Source: Amoeboaphelidium occidentale
Lineage: Eukaryota; Aphelidiomycota; Aphelidea
Direction: 5' to 3'
DNA length: 33,943 nucleotides
Assembly (NCBI GenBank): GCA_023515795.1
Contig: JALGPX010000007.1
Coordinates: forward strand, 108,140 to 142,082
The notes below the pieces were generated by a model, which was not told where the DNA came from, did no database searches, and saw only the letters and a program-made list of their open reading frames with translations. The position numbers were made by a program, and so were the translations under genes. Numbering within the stretch: position 1 is the stretch's first letter; each line of letters starts with the position of its first letter. Of the stretch, positions 22,816-33,906 are shown in pieces.

Positions 22816-23032
22816 TTGTTAAAGCAGAAAAGTTATCAAAGATTACAGGGGACAACTGAAAAAGGGTCACAAATCAACGCGTTGACAAAAGCAGCGTTCC
22901 AATACTGCTTAATGGAGCATTACAACGGCGACTACGTGTTTTTACTTGTTTTGACTTGTTACGTCGATGTCGCGGTTTCATGTTGATTTTTTTTTTGCGG
23001 TGCAGTGTCGATCTTTTCGAAATTTGTCAACA
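22816..23032. promoter_or_regulatory. Bidirectional promoter region, tail-anchored / secreted protein genes
   Basis: A 217-bp gap between divergent start codons, with a run of ten Ts at 22987-22996 and a TTTTCGAAATTT palindrome-like sequence near 23013-23024. No known factor site is assigned. Confidence 0.4.
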
Positions 23033-24562
23033 ATGAAATTTTGCTCTTTGCTTTTTGTTGCTTTAGGCGCGTTAAATCAGTTCGCTTTAAGTGCTGAATT
23101 CTCTTGGACCAAGAATATCAATGGGGACTACAAGCTGATGCGTCCTTTGGGTTGTTATGCGCCTACATCTGATCGCGTTTACGTTTACGGCGGAACTAGC
23201 TCAAGCTCTAGGCCATTGCAGGCTATTATCTCTGAAGTAGACATAATATCTGGTGAAAGCAAAGGGAATATTACGTTGTCAAACGAAAATTGGATAGATT
23301 TACGTGATATGAAAGATACGTTCCGTGATAACAATTTTGTCTTGGTTGGATCGACAAAGTATCGCACGATTTTTGGAGCATCTTCTGAAGTTGCTACTTC
23401 CAATGCTTACGGGTTTGTGGCAAAGGTCGATTTTGATTTCAGTGGAAACTTGACTGCTTCTTGGGCAAAGATCTATGGGAGCTACGCAGGTGATGTCACG
23501 TTCACAAGCGTCGTCATTGGAACAGATGGTTCTATTGCTGCTATTGGTGAAGTCAGAGGAGAAGTTGTAGGTATTCAAGCTGTATCTTATGGGTCTATTG
23601 ATATTTTGGCAATCAGATATGATCCTAACGGAAACATCGCTTGGTCCTACATTCTGGGTGGAAGATACGCAGAGGCACCTGGTTCAGTTCTTATCGACGG
23701 TACTGGAAATGTTTATGTGTCTGGTATGACCACCGATGGATTTGCATTCCAAGGAACTTTTGTCCATGCTGGATTTTTTGTTCTGAAGATTTCTCAAGAT
23801 GGCGCGTTGCTTTGGGTCAATTCATGGAACCTTCGCTCTTTTGGGCATGTTGTAAAGGCCTCATTTACTGAGAATGGTGAAATCGCTGTTTTGACTTCTT
23901 TTGATAAGAATCGAAGAGGAGTTGGTCAGAAGTTTGCCTTGAACATTGTCGACCAAGCCGGTTCTTCTGTTGCTAATATGACATACAGTAATGATTATGA
24001 TGTCAATTTTGTTGCTACAGATTTTGCCGCTAAGGGAGCAACTAGGTATGTAATTTACGGAGAGAATGCTGCTTCTTCTCAGCCTGTTTTGCTTGAAGTT
24101 GATGTGAAATCATCTGAAAGCTTTCTCTGCTCCAGGACTGAGATTTCAACTCCTGTTTCCGGAACAGGATCTCTTTGCTGGACTGTTGGGGATCGTGCCA
24201 TGGTTAGTGTTTTTGACACGAGCCGAAATTCTGTTTACGGAGTAGTGGATGTACCAAGATCTGATACTTGCGCGTCTATCGGAGGAAATAACACAGAGTC
24301 AGCTAGCATTTTCTCAACTCCTGCAGCGAGTAGCCCTACTGTTTCAATAATCGCAACAAGCACCGTTCCTGTTGAAACACCAGAACCCAACGTTACAGCT
24401 ACAACTACTGCTACTATTGAGACTGTAGTGTTGTCTCCTATTGCGCCATCTCCAAGCCGTAATCTTGTCGGAACAGGTCAGGCAACGAATGGTGCCTCAT
24501 CTTCAAAGGTATTTGGTAGCCTCATGGCAGTATCATTCGGTGTTCTCGCCATGATACTCTAA
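23033..24562 (+). CDS. Secreted, probably GPI-anchored, beta-propeller-like protein
   Basis: 510 residues, one exon. A classical signal peptide covers about residues 1-21 (MKFCSLLFVALGALNQFALS). The body has repeated beta-rich units around VAKVDFDFSGNLTASWAKIYG, AIRYDPNGNIAWSYILGG, VLKISQDGALLWVNSW, resembling SBBP-type or PQQ-like beta-propeller blades (D-x-x-G-N/A-x-x-W pattern). A Ser/Thr/Pro-rich stalk (about 425-480) likely carries O-glycans, with several N-glycosylation sites. The C-terminus is NGASSSKVFGSLMAVSFGVL and a few further hydrophobic residues, a good GPI signal. Expected at the cell wall or plasma membrane. Function unknown. I chose the ATG at 23033 because it begins the signal peptide; the longer upstream frame has a poor start. 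Confidence 0.8.
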   Translation: MKFCSLLFVALGALNQFALSAEFSWTKNINGDYKLMRPLGCYAPTSDRVYVYGGTSSSSRPLQAIISEVDIISGESKGNITLSNENWIDLRDMKDTFRDNNFVLVGSTKYRTIFGASSEVATSNAYGFVAKVDFDFSGNLTASWAKIYGSYAGDVTFTSVVIGTDGSIAAIGEVRGEVVGIQAVSYGSIDILAIRYDPNGNIAWSYILGGRYAEAPGSVLIDGTGNVYVSGMTTDGFAFQGTFVHAGFFVLKISQDGALLWVNSWNLRSFGHVVKASFTENGEIAVLTSFDKNRRGVGQKFALNIVDQAGSSVANMTYSNDYDVNFVATDFAAKGATRYVIYGENAASSQPVLLEVDVKSSESFLCSRTEISTPVSGTGSLCWTVGDRAMVSVFDTSRNSVYGVVDVPRSDTCASIGGNNTESASIFSTPAASSPTVSIIATSTVPVETPEPNVTATTTATIETVVLSPIAPSPSRNLVGTGQATNGASSSKVFGSLMAVSFGVLAMIL

Positions 24563-25821
24563 TAGAGATTTGCAAATCTTGAAAAAATCGAGCCCGCGCA
24601 CCCCGAGTTAGCTGTTCAGCGAGTCCGAGTTAGCTTCTCACACGAGAAAACGGAATTAAAACACCTAGAAAAGTCCTCTTACCTTCATTTATTGCTTCTG
24701 TTGGACTGAAAGTCAAATAACATTATGATATTGCACAAGGAACCGCAGTTCAGAATTACGATACTGATGATACTACAGCTGCGAGACGTAAATGGTGACT
24801 TGGAACTTCAGATCTACTCCGCTTCATTACCCTCCGCTATTTCAAGTTCACGTTGGAGAGACTGAATAGTCGGTGTGGAGTACACGCTTATGGAAATTGA
24901 CTGTAATTTGTTCTGAACTGTATGGCGATATCAACGAACGTGTGAAGCTCAATATGCCAAAGTTTCAGCTTCACAGCGTCAGCGCATTATTTATGCGCCA
25001 AAAGTGGTTTCAACGAGATATCCAACTCAACTCTAAACCAATACCCATAAAACTCCCAAGCGCGAGTCTATCTTTATTTATCTTTCGAATGACGCTTAAA
25101 GTGTTGGAAATCTTAGAGTCGTGGTGTTGTTGTTACAGACTGATATTTGATCTCATGCACAAACTCGATGGATGACTTCTTGAACATCCTTTTCGCATGA
25201 TTTCAATCGTTCATCTTTGACAAGCGAAGCATTCTATATGCTATTTTTCATTCACTAGCGACAAATGTTTATTCCTTGTTTGATCTACAATGCGTGCATC
25301 AATTTTGACGCTAAACACACTCTTAGCACGAGAAAGGTCACAATCAGAGAAACTAATGGCAATAGCATTCTCAAGACCCACCCTGGGAACTTGAATTTCG
25401 CGCATAGGAAACTTCACATGATGAACTTTCAGAATCATCCATCAGATTTGGCACAAGTTTTCGGGACGCAAGATTCGTTGCCACCTGAAACTTGAAATAG
25501 CGCTGTTTCAATAAAAAAAATCAGAGAAAATCAAGACTGTTCGTAATGAATTGCGTTAAATATCACTCTTTGAGCCCTAAGTTTATTCGAAGCCCTAACT
25601 GATCAGCTTTAATGTCTTTAAACATGAGTGTTTCACATCATCAGCGCGCAATATCATCGTGAAAATCCGTCAATTCCATGTCTCCTGGTCGTTTAAGAGT
25701 GAATAAGATACCATCGACTTCAACACGAACCGCGTTGTTTCAAGTCGACCCAAGCAGGGAAATCATACGCCACACGCATAAACCATCTTTCAAGGCATTT
25801 TCCGTTAGTAATCAAGCTCTC
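24563..25821. other. Gene-free stretch upstream of the Fanzor relic
   Basis: About 1.26 kb with only short open frames lacking family signatures. Near its start CCGAGTTAGCT occurs twice within about 35 bases (around 24603 and 24628). The left boundary of the Fanzor-bearing element, if it survives, should lie here, but no terminal repeat or target-site duplication could be recognised by eye. Confidence 0.5.
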
Positions 25822-26125
25822 TTTTGCTCTTTTTGTATGACTACGGATTCTATGAGTACTTTCGAGCACAAGAACAAGTTCCATTTACTACGAGTTGAGG
25901 ACGGCGTGGACTTGGATTTTAATATGAGATTTGATGAGAATGAGATGCCAAAGACATTTACTACGGACAATGTTTTGAGTATGAGTATGGTTGAGCATTC
26001 TGGAGTAGCAGTTGATGTGGGCGATTCTAGTGGCATTGGGCCAAGATCAGGAGGAAAGAAACGGAAGGAACCAGAAGCCGGCAAAAGGTGCAAGTGTGGT
26101 AGTACGGAGCATCAGAGAATCTCCA
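25822..26125 (+). repeat. First member of duplicated block 1 (304 bp), abutting N 26126
   Basis: Nearly identical to 26127-26430, the same length, with roughly 5% differences. The single N at 26126 separates the two. Both encode the same N-terminal part of the Fanzor-like protein, ending in the CKCGSTEHQRIS zinc-knuckle-like motif. Probably an unmerged allelic or paralogous contig end. Confidence 0.85.
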
Positions 26126-26126
26126 N

Positions 26127-26430
26127 TTTTGCTCTTTTTGTATTACTACGGATTTTATGAGTATTTACGAGCATAAGAATAAGTTCCATTTACTACGAGT
26201 TGAGGACACTATGGACTTAGATTTAAAAATGAGAAATGATGAGAATGAGATGCCAAAGACATTTACTACGGACAATGTTTTGAGTATGAGTATGGTTGAG
26301 CATTCTGGGGTAGCAGTTGATGTGGGCGATTCTAGTGGCATTGGGCCAAGTGCAGGAGGAAAGAAACGGAAGGAACCAGAAGCCGGCAAAAGGTGCAAGT
26401 GTGGTAGTACGGAGCATCAGAGAATCTCCA
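26127..26430 (+). repeat. Second member of duplicated block 1 (304 bp)
   Basis: Partner of 25822-26125. This version continues past the shared end into NKNCPLYKPRLKL and so links the N-terminal segment to the rest of the Fanzor-like gene. Confidence 0.85.
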
Positions 26431-26470
26431 ACAAGAACTGTCCACTGTACAAGCCTAGGTTGAAACTGTA

Positions 26471-26722
26471 GTGTCGAGATACTGAGTTGCCTGAAAAGAC
26501 CGTGACCACTACAACTGGTTTGAACTCAGTATTGCGCATTACTCCTCTCAAAAACATCATTATGGATGCTGTTGCACGCTGTACCAACATCCAAGTTGAA
26601 GTTTCACGTCTATTGAATGGATACATGATTTGAATGATTGAAGAGAACAGACCCATTCCAGAATTAGGATTTAGTGATGGGATTATGAGAGAGTTCTATC
26701 AAGCAGTATGTTCCATTGATGC
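26471..26722 (+). repeat. First member of duplicated block 2 (252 bp), abutting N 26723
   Basis: Aligned without gaps to 26725-26976. Including the base just before the block, I count ten differences, nine of them transitions, six being A here against G in the partner. One creates a TGA (26631-26633) where the partner has TGG. Confidence 0.85.
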
Positions 26723-26724
26723 NC

Positions 26725-26976
26725 AGTATCGAGATACTGAGTTGCCTGAAAAGACCGTGACCACTACAACTGGTTTGAACTCAGTATTGCGCATTGCTCC
26801 TCTCGAAGACATCATTATGGATGCTGTTGCACGTTGTACCGACATCCAAGTTGAAGTTTCACGTCTATTGAATGGATACGTGATTTGGATGATTGAAGAG
26901 AACAGACCCATTCCAGAATTAGGATTTAGTGATGGGATTATGAGAGAGTTCTATCAAGCAGTATGTTCCAATGATG
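26725..26976 (+). repeat. Second member of duplicated block 2 (252 bp)
   Basis: Partner of 26471-26722, coding through without the stops found in that copy. The base pair just upstream gives CAG (26724-26726) where the first copy has TAG (26470-26472). Confidence 0.85.
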
Positions 26977-28556
26977 CAGTTAGAAATCCACACCAGCATA
27001 AAGTTGTTTCAACTCCTTCTATTAATGAGTATATGGATGAGGTATACTCGAGGTGCAGGCCTGATCATTTGGCGTGGAATGATGCTACTAAACTAGCGCA
27101 GCTCATTTCAAATATGGCGAGAATGCATTCCACGAACTGTCAAAACCATGTGGTCACTAATATTTTGAAGTGGATAAAGAAATGGTTGATTTGGAAACTT
27201 GGTAAACAATTGAGAGCGTTCTAAGTGTAGACAATTCTAATGAGGTAGTTACAGTAGCAATAAATGAAATCCCACGAACTGAAAAAGATGAAAGATCCTA
27301 CTCTATCCCTCTAAACATTATTGAGAGCGCTAATCCGGAACAACTGAATGGGATATATGATCGAATTAATCACTATTACGAAATATTGGGAGTTATCCTG
27401 CATAATAAGCCGTTAAATGAGGACTCTCTTAAGGCATCATGGTGGAAATACTTGAAACCGATATCCAGACTCTTGAAATTATTTGTAAATAATTATAAAC
27501 AAGATGCTCAGAATCGTCTAAAGAATGGGATTCACGGAGAGGTTTGAGATTGTTTAGTCTCACTCCCATCAGTACTTTTAAAAAATAGTTCATACTTCTT
27601 GATACTGACGCTTTACATGATTAAATGACTTCTGAAAATATTAGGATTGTAGTTCCGAGGATTAAACTGGTTTCAGATTGAACGTGATGAAGTGGTGGCG
27701 TAGAGCGTTTAATATTGACAAGCTCACTAGTGCCACAAAGCGTTTTGGGTTCTCTGTCTCCACTTATGGTTTTGAATACCACCAGCTTAACATGAAACAG
27801 TTTGAGAGATCTGAGATCAATGATTGGGGTTACAACTATGAGGGAGAATTTATACCGTTGGACATTAATGGGCAGACTCGTATTGTTGCTTAAGACCCTG
27901 AAAGAAACTCTCTGTATGTGGCTGTGGCTGGGAATACCGCTGCGGATGTTTTGGAATGTTCAAACAGTCGCTGGCAAGAGATATCAGGGACTAGATACTC
28001 TACCAAGAAGGCAAACACTTGGATAACAGCTGATCGTGACAGGCATATGGCGATTACTTTAACTCCAACACCGTGCTGTTCTAATACAGATGGTTACATT
28101 ACACACTTGTTACATGTTTTGGAATATCGCGATGAGTTTCTTGGGTTCTACCGGGCCATGCGTTGGAGAAGACTCCGGTGGAAGACGCGAATTAAACGAC
28201 AGAAGGCGTATGATACTTTATATAAGGAGCTTGCTGCTGGTGCTGAAGATGTTGTGATTGCTTATGGTGGTGGAGGTTTCAGTCACAACTCCAGAGGACA
28301 TCCACCCACTCCAAACAAACATCTTTTCGTGGAATTGAATCGAAGAACAAGGTGCTGGTTGGTTCCTGAATTCAGAACGAGCAAATTGTGCTCATTGTGT
28401 GATAACATATTGGTTCAATCTGATATCTGGTCGATCAAGAGTTGTAATAATCCCAACTGCTAGACCCGCTGGAATCGTGATATCAATGGAGCAAGGAATA
28501 CCAGAAGAGTTTTCCTTCATATGAATGCCAATGGTGGTGAAAAGCCGGAAGCGTTC

Positions 28557-28651
28557 CGTAGGGGAAACTAGTCTGATGTTTCAACACAACTTGATCATGG
28601 TGCAGGTACTTGAGAGGATTTCCAATTGGGTAGCTGGGAAAGCCATGATCA
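28557..28651 (+). ncRNA. Candidate Fanzor guide (omega-type) RNA scaffold
   Basis: Fanzor guide RNAs typically overlap the 3' end of the nuclease gene and run into its 3' flank. Here the gene's last codons are followed by an imperfect hairpin: outer arms TGATCATGG (28592-28600) and CCATGATCA (28643-28651), inner arms TTTCC (28619-28623) and GGAAA (28637-28641), with a 13-nt loop. The same stem occurs in the duplicate (28859-28918). Position fits; structure was judged by eye only. It could equally be a palindrome tied to the TELO2 promoter. Confidence 0.3.
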
Positions 28652-28822
28652 GCGATAGCCCGAATTCGCATTAGGGCAATTTCGTGTATTGAGTCTTGTT
28701 GCATTAATGATCGCGCGAGTACGAATGTCAGTTTGTTCGTTGATCATTTTGCGTGAAAAGCACAATAATAGAGATAATTTCAATTTGACGCTTAAATCTT
28801 TTTCTCAATATGGTTCAAACCT
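28557..28822 (+). repeat. First member of duplicated block 3, abutting N 28823
   Basis: Nearly identical to 28824-29092, which is three bases longer (ACGAATTATGTCAG against ACGAATGTCAG). It runs from the last codons of the Fanzor-like gene to the first codons of TELO2, so the TELO2 start appears twice. The first copy of the start, near 28810, runs into the N. Confidence 0.85.
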
Positions 28823-29079
28823 NCGTAGGGGAAACTAGTCTGATGTTTCAACACAACTTGATCATGGTGCAGGTACTTGAGAGGATTTCCAATTGGGTAG
28901 CTGGGAAAGCCATGATCAGCGATAGCCCGAATTCGCATTAGGTCATTTTCGTGTATTGAGTCTTGTTGCATTAATGATCGCGCGGGTACGAATTATGTCA
29001 GTTTGTTCGTTGATCATTTTGCGTGAAAAGCACAATAATAGAGATAATTTCAATTTGACGCTTAAATCTTTTTCTCAAT
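28572..29079. other. Spacer between Fanzor relic and TELO2, doubled by the assembly
   Basis: If the two copies of block 3 are one locus, the true spacer is about 240 bp. It must hold the Fanzor 3' UTR or element end, a hairpin-forming sequence described separately, and the TELO2 promoter. No terminal inverted repeat is recognisable. Confidence 0.5.
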
Positions 29080-29092
29080 ATGGTTCAAACCT
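28824..29092 (+). repeat. Second member of duplicated block 3 (269 bp)
   Basis: Partner of 28557-28822. This copy is continuous with the TELO2 coding sequence that follows. Confidence 0.85.
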
Positions 29093-33009: not shown

Positions 33010-33906
33010 TTAAATTTTTATTGGATAGCCATGAGTCTTGAACGCCTCTTTCGCGCGCTTAGGCATACTGTCCGCTAAATGTTCACATACCGAATCCTCG
33101 ATGTTGTTCCATTCGTGGAGGACCGAATCAATCAAAGCATGTTTGGGCGTGAACATAGTATGGTCACTGTACAGTCTTCTCTTGATGATAGCCCATAAAT
33201 TCTCAATAGGATTGAGGTCCGGACTTTGCGTTGGCCACTCAAGGATTTTGATCTTTTCCTTCCTGAGAAAAGCCAAAGTTTTCTTCACGGTGTGAGGACG
33301 AGCATTATCCTGCATAAAGACAAACCCTTGCCTGTGCTCCTGTTTTAAGTGTTTCATCTCAGAGACCAAGTAGTTGTCTAACAAATCGATATACTTGTCT
33401 TTGTCTACCGTTCCTTCTACAGGAATTAAAGGCCCAACACCATATTTTGTGAAAGCGCCACAAAAAGTGACTTTAAAACCGCCCTGTTGAACTTGCGGGT
33501 TAGATGGTATTTCCCAATATTGTTGAGTACAGTGTACCAACACCTTTACTTTTCTGTTGCGAGGGCACGCTTCAACTGTTACCTCATCGCTCCAGACCAC
33601 ATGGTCCCAAAACTGCTCATCATCATCTTCATGTTTCTCCGCAAATACCAACCGCTTCCTCCTATTATCTGAAGATACTGGTACAACTTTAGGTGCTTCC
33701 TAAGCATCCCAGCCTCTACTGGCCAGGAAACATTGAATAGAAGTTCTGTGTGGAATTGTTTCAAATGGCGGATCATGTTGTTTCAACTTCTCAGCGATCT
33801 TAGTATACTCAATAAAGGGGCCATATCTAGCAATATCAAGGATAGCCAAAGCCAGTGGGCCCCTGATGAGTCTGTGTCTGCGTACTACCTTCGGAGGAAG
33901 CTGCAA
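33010..33906 (-). mobile_element. Tc1-type (DD34E) transposase with one in-frame stop
   Basis: Cut-and-paste transposase of the IS630-Tc1-mariner superfamily. One reading frame from about 33906 down to TAA 33012-33010, interrupted only by TAG at 33702-33700. Upstream part: helix-turn-helix region (GPLALAILDIARYGPFIEYTK, IPHRTSIQCFLASRGWDA). After the stop: EAPKVVPVSS-NRRKRLVFAEKH, then the catalytic triad in WSDEVT, FMQDNARPHT and SPDLNPIENLW, with 34 residues between the second Asp and the Glu. The frame has no ATG start in the window; TTTGCAG just upstream could be a splice acceptor or the true start may lie beyond the window edge. Terminal inverted repeats could not be matched because the right end is cut off. 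About 298 residues excluding the stop. The lesion makes this copy probably inactive unless the stop is an assembly error. Confidence 0.88.

Follow-up and report, generated by a model that had tools for sequence, protein, structure and literature searches.

A probable Fanzor1-family element, broken in the copy at hand, recurs in the genome of the aphelid Amoeboaphelidium occidentale

Among eukaryotes, TnpB and Cas12 have their counterparts in the Fanzors, which attract study as programmable nucleases. The stretch of DNA analysed here, referred to as the window, comprises 33,943 nucleotides from the aphelid Amoeboaphelidium occidentale (contig JALGPX010000007.1, positions 108,140 to 142,082 of the forward strand). 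On its plus strand, positions 24570..28765 very probably hold a disrupted copy of a Fanzor1-family element that is repeated and likely transposable; for unbroken relatives of its gene, DNA cleavage is predicted to be guided by an RNA that the element's own 3' end provides. The element spans about 4.2 kb as assembled and about 3.6 kb when duplicates at assembly seams are subtracted. A first-pass annotation of the window had placed a Fanzor relic in a fungal genome; the host is an aphelid, an algal parasite near the fungi, and NCBI taxonomy files the species under Fungi. The assembly is described as holding 13,559,732 bases with 39.93% GC and a top scaffold of 366,412 (PMC10608142); the genome sequence searched here amounts to 11.3 Mb, versus these 13.56 Mb. 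The GC content of the window is about 40%.

The family assignment is based on the C-terminal half of the gene (27672..28571, plus strand, frame +3), which contains the RuvC and zinc-ribbon parts and ends with the TAG at 28569-28571. The zinc ribbon TSKLCSLC...CNNPNC, the NRDINGARN motif, the VVIAYGGGGFSHNSRGHPPTP block and the DPER aspartate, from which a RuvC-zinc-ribbon layout of the TnpB/Fanzor type had been read earlier, are all present. In a scan of the whole genome, the Pfam model TNB scores 32.1 bits at 28359-28499, and it reaches 30.5 bits on the read-through of 27678-28568 across two stops (cut-off 26.3); the 189-aa open frame alone scores 14.5 bits, since the TNB domain is truncated there by the TAG at 28461. 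The read-through also matches the Fanzor1 motif D-x(125,275)-[TS][TS]-x-x-[C4]-x(5,50)-RD, with D at 27894, TS at 28377, C4 at 28389-28460 and RD at 28476. Structure prediction of the C-terminal half gives a RuvC fold with the zinc ribbon (TNB) between RuvC-II and RuvC-III. The nearest solved proteins are SpuFz1 and PpFz1, both by sequence and by predicted fold, and the three catalytic positions match; this agrees with the proposed layout, since no unrelated zinc-ribbon family came out as the best match and the RuvC fold was predicted for 27678-28571. An AlphaFold model of the full-length relative P0001, made with 5 sequences, had a pLDDT of 40.5 and was not used.

The catalytic residues can be placed individually. 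The RuvC-I aspartate (DPER, 27894..27896) is kept in all seven aligned copies covering the site, and the RuvC-II glutamate (VPEFRTSKLC, 28368..28370) occupies a shifted position six residues ahead of the C4 zinc ribbon (CSLC ... CNNPNC, 28389..28460), which is the alternative position described for Fanzor1 (PMC10711439). Most relatives covering the glutamate site read EFRTS, EYRTS or EFKTS, and the spacing of 158 residues between this aspartate and glutamate equals that of SpuFz1. The RuvC-III aspartate (WNRD, 28479..28481) requires read-through of the TAG at 28461. Survival of the active site, as claimed by the first-pass annotation, thus holds for Asp, Glu and Asp but not for the glycine of the RuvC-I triplet: among the seven near copies (window included), four have DPG and one each DPE, DSG and DHG, and DPG is also present in the sister gene P0001. 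The window copy has DPE, and because DPER replaces DPG, it is filed as a relic and not as a working member. As judged from sequence and structural model, the window gene is most probably a Fanzor1 relic.

The window copy is one of many. The zinc-ribbon model yields 90 matches in the genome, 84 of them above the cut-off (two only via in-frame neighbours), on 65 contigs and in 79 clusters, while the 189-aa piece matches 97 places, window included; these counts are approximate and refer to the matches listed, and seams double some copies. The nearest copies show about 80-95% DNA identity; proteins of other subfamilies are close to 70%, 50% and 36% identical to the RuvC half of the window gene. 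Intact relatives had been expected in the same genome. In a sister subfamily this is the case: the gene on C90 (L050) is open for 751 codons with no stop and no N, and 711 residues of the gene model P0001 (MP638_003169, 749 aa), which starts in a predicted upstream exon, are identical to this open frame. In the window's own subfamily, however, only unbroken C-terminal halves (e.g., 311 aa at L011) and no complete gene were seen. Pairwise dN/dS of the window against L088, L030, L032, L034, L042, L033 and L023 ranges from 0.12 to 0.29 over the RuvC half. Changes private to the window copy are four synonymous and two amino-acid changes, compared with two and seven in C183b, three and seven in C142, and ten and eight plus two stops in C203, all of them small counts. 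The pattern fits past selection on the family, recent loss in the window copy and decay in several sisters. Recent loss of function, as suggested earlier, is therefore compatible with the low dN/dS, but three frame changes and six stops represent real decay. A separate gene model, P0020 (MP638_003276), fuses the N-terminal half of a Fanzor to a Sua5-type protein containing PF01300 and PF03481; the fusion may be either an insertion or a gene-prediction error.

The coding half is followed by a conserved 3' non-coding end of 196 bases (28572..28767, plus strand), a predicted guide-RNA (omega RNA) scaffold, whose last 26 nt (28742-28767) form the shared terminus GATCATTTTGCGTGAAAAGCACAATA. The adjoining flank (28768..28787, plus strand) varies from copy to copy and is the putative guide segment by analogy. 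This order of scaffold and guide would correspond to that of SpuFz1, whose guide RNA derives from the 3' end of the element according to small-RNA sequencing reported in PMC10432273. The 196 bases are 99% identical to C142 and 98% identical to C183a, with four gapped columns each; the coding half is 93-94% identical, and dS between the window and these copies is 0.16 and 0.17, respectively. The 5' side (25619-26000) is 87-91% identical to other copies and thus less conserved than the 3' end. A scan of the window against Rfam gave no match. In a covariation analysis of the 3' end, none of 16 pairs was changed on both sides, so that conservation is not separable from structure; the analysis used 21 sequences, 19 of them distinct, and omitted L085 and L086, whose termini are short, as well as the second end of C154. 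As the predicted RNA fold of 28570-28787 has a z of -2.0 and covariation is absent, the RNA itself is something that we infer.

Comparison of copies further revealed that near-identical nuclease halves are joined to different 3'-end types. The window type is found in C183a, C142 and C203 (96-99% identical). In C183b (L030, C183:87834-91400; no N in the compared stretch), the nuclease half is 95% identical to the window and the 3' end 69%, with 42 gapped columns, and C55 (no N after 27972) shows 94% and 70%. This second type also occurs in C44, C26, C171 and C178 (65-70% identical to the window), of which C26 and C171 have an N in the compared stretch and C44 and C178 have nuclease halves that are just 85% and 78% identical. 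A third type is present in C123 (68% identical to the window). L030 differs in its 3'-end type from L032 and L034, with near-identical nuclease halves.

An alternative that we consider improbable, but that deserves to be taken seriously, is that the 3' end is conserved as a terminal or subterminal repeat bound by a transposase, or through recent gene conversion, and that no guide RNA exists. Several copies carry, at the extreme right, bases that form a short inverted repeat with the left end (TATTGTG/CACAATA), compensatory base changes are absent, and differing 3'-end types on near-identical genes show recombination. However, the conserved stretch of about 196 bases extends far beyond the inverted repeat, the 5' end is less conserved, and a characterised Fanzor1 makes its RNA from exactly the same place. 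Under the guide-RNA interpretation, and by analogy with characterised Fanzors, an RNA would be transcribed across the 3' end of the element and the first flank bases would act as the guide; the RNA-bound protein would then cut matching DNA beside a short motif, and subsequent repair would keep or restore the element. RNA guiding, cleavage and transposition are thus ascribed to the window family by analogy, and the window copy itself could at most supply RNA from its 3' end to a sister protein.

The damage to the window gene has to be read together with the structure of the assembly. The finding covers three pieces of one scaffold, with single Ns joining them at 26126 and 26723, and there is one more seam at 28823. 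Each N is flanked on both sides by the same 253-304 bp with 94-98% identity: 25822-26125 recurs at 26127-26430 (94.1%), 26470-26722 at 26725-26977 (96.4%), and 28557-28822 at 28824-29092 (97.8%), the last carrying a second right end at 29037. At the loci examined (e.g., L012, L015, L021), overlapping duplicated ends occur at 43 of 99 distinct single-N joins, with a median of 290 bases, and are absent from the other 56. Because the same sequence flanks each N, the repetition of N-terminal blocks stems from contig ends and is no biological duplication, and the seams account for part of the broken look of the gene. The GenBank model P0022 (MP638_005954, 357 aa) matches the N-terminal half of the window gene with a block repeated across a seam. 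Another GenBank model, P0014, has an internal repeat like that of P0022, and both match such seams. Seams have thus shaped some of the gene models deposited for this genome, and annotation-derived counts and lengths can be misleading.

Coding frames, all on the plus strand, were assigned against the proteins P0014 and P0015 and run in the order +1 / +3 / +3, +2, +1, +3, where slashes denote seams. The N-terminal part consists of 25837..26125 (frame +1; 25822-26125 is the redundant contig end) and 26142..26722 (frame +3, in-frame stops at 26469 and 26631, before the second seam). These are followed by 26724..27221 (frame +3, the N-terminal half past the knuckle described below), 27209..27538 (frame +2, preceded by a frame change), 27538..27672 (frame +1, stops at 27586 and 27622) and the RuvC and zinc-ribbon half, which is interrupted at 27891-27893 and 28461-28463. 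Within the contig piece 26724-28822 lie four of the six stops, together with all three frame changes (near 27190-27210, 27538 and 27672). The earlier description of a gene broken by several stops and frame changes is therefore correct for these lesions, and part of the breakage belongs to the seams. Since frame changes and stops sit inside contig pieces, the window copy is truly damaged and, as its assembled sequence reads, is unable to make the full protein. It is unlikely that the living organism carries an intact gene whose apparent breakage comes from seams and a contig mixing several near-identical copies. Three single-N seams with duplicated ends lie within reach, like those at 43 of the 99 joins, and the seam-flanking pieces differ by 2-6% and therefore may derive from different copies; yet this would not explain the lesions inside the single piece 26724-28822, and other near copies are damaged too, with stops or an altered DPG.

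Two further explanations fare worse than this. A bacterial TnpB or an IS607-type Fanzor2, whether native or a contamination, is highly improbable. In its favour are weak matches to the bacterial TnpB models NF040570 and NF038281 (19.3 and 17.5 bits, far below their cut-offs), a comparison by fold that gives GtFz1 a Z no better than that of TnpB and Fanzor2, and one serine recombinase elsewhere in the genome (C172:89432-89881, L097); it is the sole match of its kind, may belong to an IS607-type element, and shares C172 with Fanzor copies. We give hardly any credence to a domesticated host gene whose short product still serves some different function. The 357-aa model P0022 could be cited for it, but this model repeats the N-terminal block across the seam, and the locus is one among many copies bearing element ends.

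The boundaries of the Fanzor1-family element are defined by comparison among copies. About 20 copies have a common left start at window 24566-24570, and a sharp right stop lies at 28765-28767. The 5' non-coding part (24570..25836, plus strand) has 105 matches including itself and recurs on many Fanzor-bearing scaffolds, and a genome-wide pattern search for the 26-base right terminus gave 29 hits (up to three mismatches; the window counts twice owing to the seam), compared with none for the reversed control. A 10-bp direct repeat, TAATAGAGAT, flanks the element at 24560..24569 and 28766..28775 (plus strand) and is a candidate target-site duplication; its left copy overlaps the host gene 22955-24562, whose stop codon supplies the first three bases. 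Such 10-bp repeats were found at two of 14 same-scaffold end pairs, which are not independent because several scaffolds supply more than one pair: those of the window and the C26 copy (TAACTCCTGC). The other 12 have at most five bases in common. Among 406 cross-scaffold pairs, ten reach 8-9 bp, and seven of these pair the common TATTGTG-type left end with C192. As left ends of this type dominate the cross-scaffold matches, the left boundary may differ among copies; many copies have as their left end TATTGTG, which pairs with the right end CACAATA in inverted orientation and is absent from the window.

Several isolated ends were also observed. The left flank of C203 (L067) and the right flank of C172 (L038) share nine bases, AAACGATAT, as if the ends of a single insertion sat on different scaffolds; scaffolds may therefore mispair ends. 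Three solitary sites, C118:12677-12695, C52:59765-59783 and C27:6531-6549, carry the final 19 bases of this terminus but lack the rest of the 3' end; the C27 site is known from a pattern match alone and the other two from inspected sequences. Right ends at C140:51503-51528, C88:2835 and C88:157 lie on contigs without a listed zinc-ribbon match and are candidates for ghost elements of the kind known from Spizellomyces.

The N-terminal half of the window gene contains a CxC-x4-H-x7-C knuckle (CKCGSTEHQRISNKNC; 26394..26441, plus strand). The pattern C-x(1,2)-C-x4-H-x7-C is present in 14 of 22 related proteins as well as in the window, and in none of the shuffled proteins. Altered forms occur in P0005, P0010, P0012 and P0017; of the proteins without a knuckle, P0002, P0008 and P0009 begin later in the alignment, and the gene model P0022 lacks the stretch. 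Neither "knuckle" nor "CCHC" appears in the main text of the Fanzor papers checked (supplements aside), and a literature search for Fanzors with a zinc knuckle or CCHC returned no Fanzor paper among the matches listed. One might guess that the knuckle binds RNA or the element ends.

The window family differs from characterised Fanzor systems in several respects. The SPu-1/SpuFz1 elements of Spizellomyces punctatus are about 2.1 kb long with inverted repeats of 30-33 bp and TA duplications, whereas the window element has about 3.6 kb, ends that are short and imperfect, and a repeat of 10 bp; moreover, SpuFz1 has no counterpart of the CxC-H-C knuckle in the confidently aligned stretch. PpFz1 of Parasitella parasitica carries a RuvC insertion of about 100 residues that binds cyclophilin, and by our own count its Asp-Glu spacing is 270 residues, versus 158 in the window. 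The MuDR-like Fanzor1 elements of Mucorales (ROr-4, PBl-3, MCi-4) are described as having no transposase of their own and 9-bp duplications (PMC3627910), near the 10 bp of the window; their inverted repeats resemble known MuDR, whereas the window element ends were found in none of the three MULE loci. As described in PMC3627910, CMe-1A of Cyanidioschyzon merolae resembles the present family in its high copy number and also in its ends, which have no inverted repeats there and only short ones here, but resides in a different host.

Transposase matches in the genome total 15 over six families (MULE 3, hAT 6, DDE_3 5, of which two are on the window scaffold, serine recombinase 1). A search for IS1595/Merlin gave no matches in the genome, and neither did one for Helitron, which had no positive control and is thus no proof of absence. 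In a scan for element ends that covered seven of the nine MULE and hAT loci, the one AAAAGCACAA seen lacked the rest of the terminus and was rejected. Downstream of the element, the window contains a TEL2-like gene and, on the minus strand at 33010-33699, a Tc1/mariner-type transposase (DDE_3, 53.6 bits).

High-copy Fanzor families are already known, with about 150 copies reported for Cyanidioschyzon (PMC3627910) and 42 Fz loci plus 134 ghosts for Spizellomyces (PMC10432273); the exchange of ends and the knuckle are features that deserve a bench test. As a rather speculative extension, aphelid Fanzor1 could be modular, combining a knuckle-bearing nuclease with 3' guide-RNA ends swapped between subfamilies; dead copies could then guide unbroken ones in trans, and the family would have spread to about 79 clusters, versus 15 matches for six transposase families. 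The use of guides from other copies has been raised as a possibility for the Spizellomyces ghost loci (PMC10432273). A literature search found no paper joining Fanzor and aphelid, and because RNA-guided cutting of DNA is predicted for the unbroken relatives, the aphelid lineage is likely a rich, little-studied source of Fanzors. With its several subfamilies, its unbroken member and its near-identical nuclease halves on differing 3' ends, this aphelid would let one ask whether a Fanzor takes the guide RNAs of other copies.
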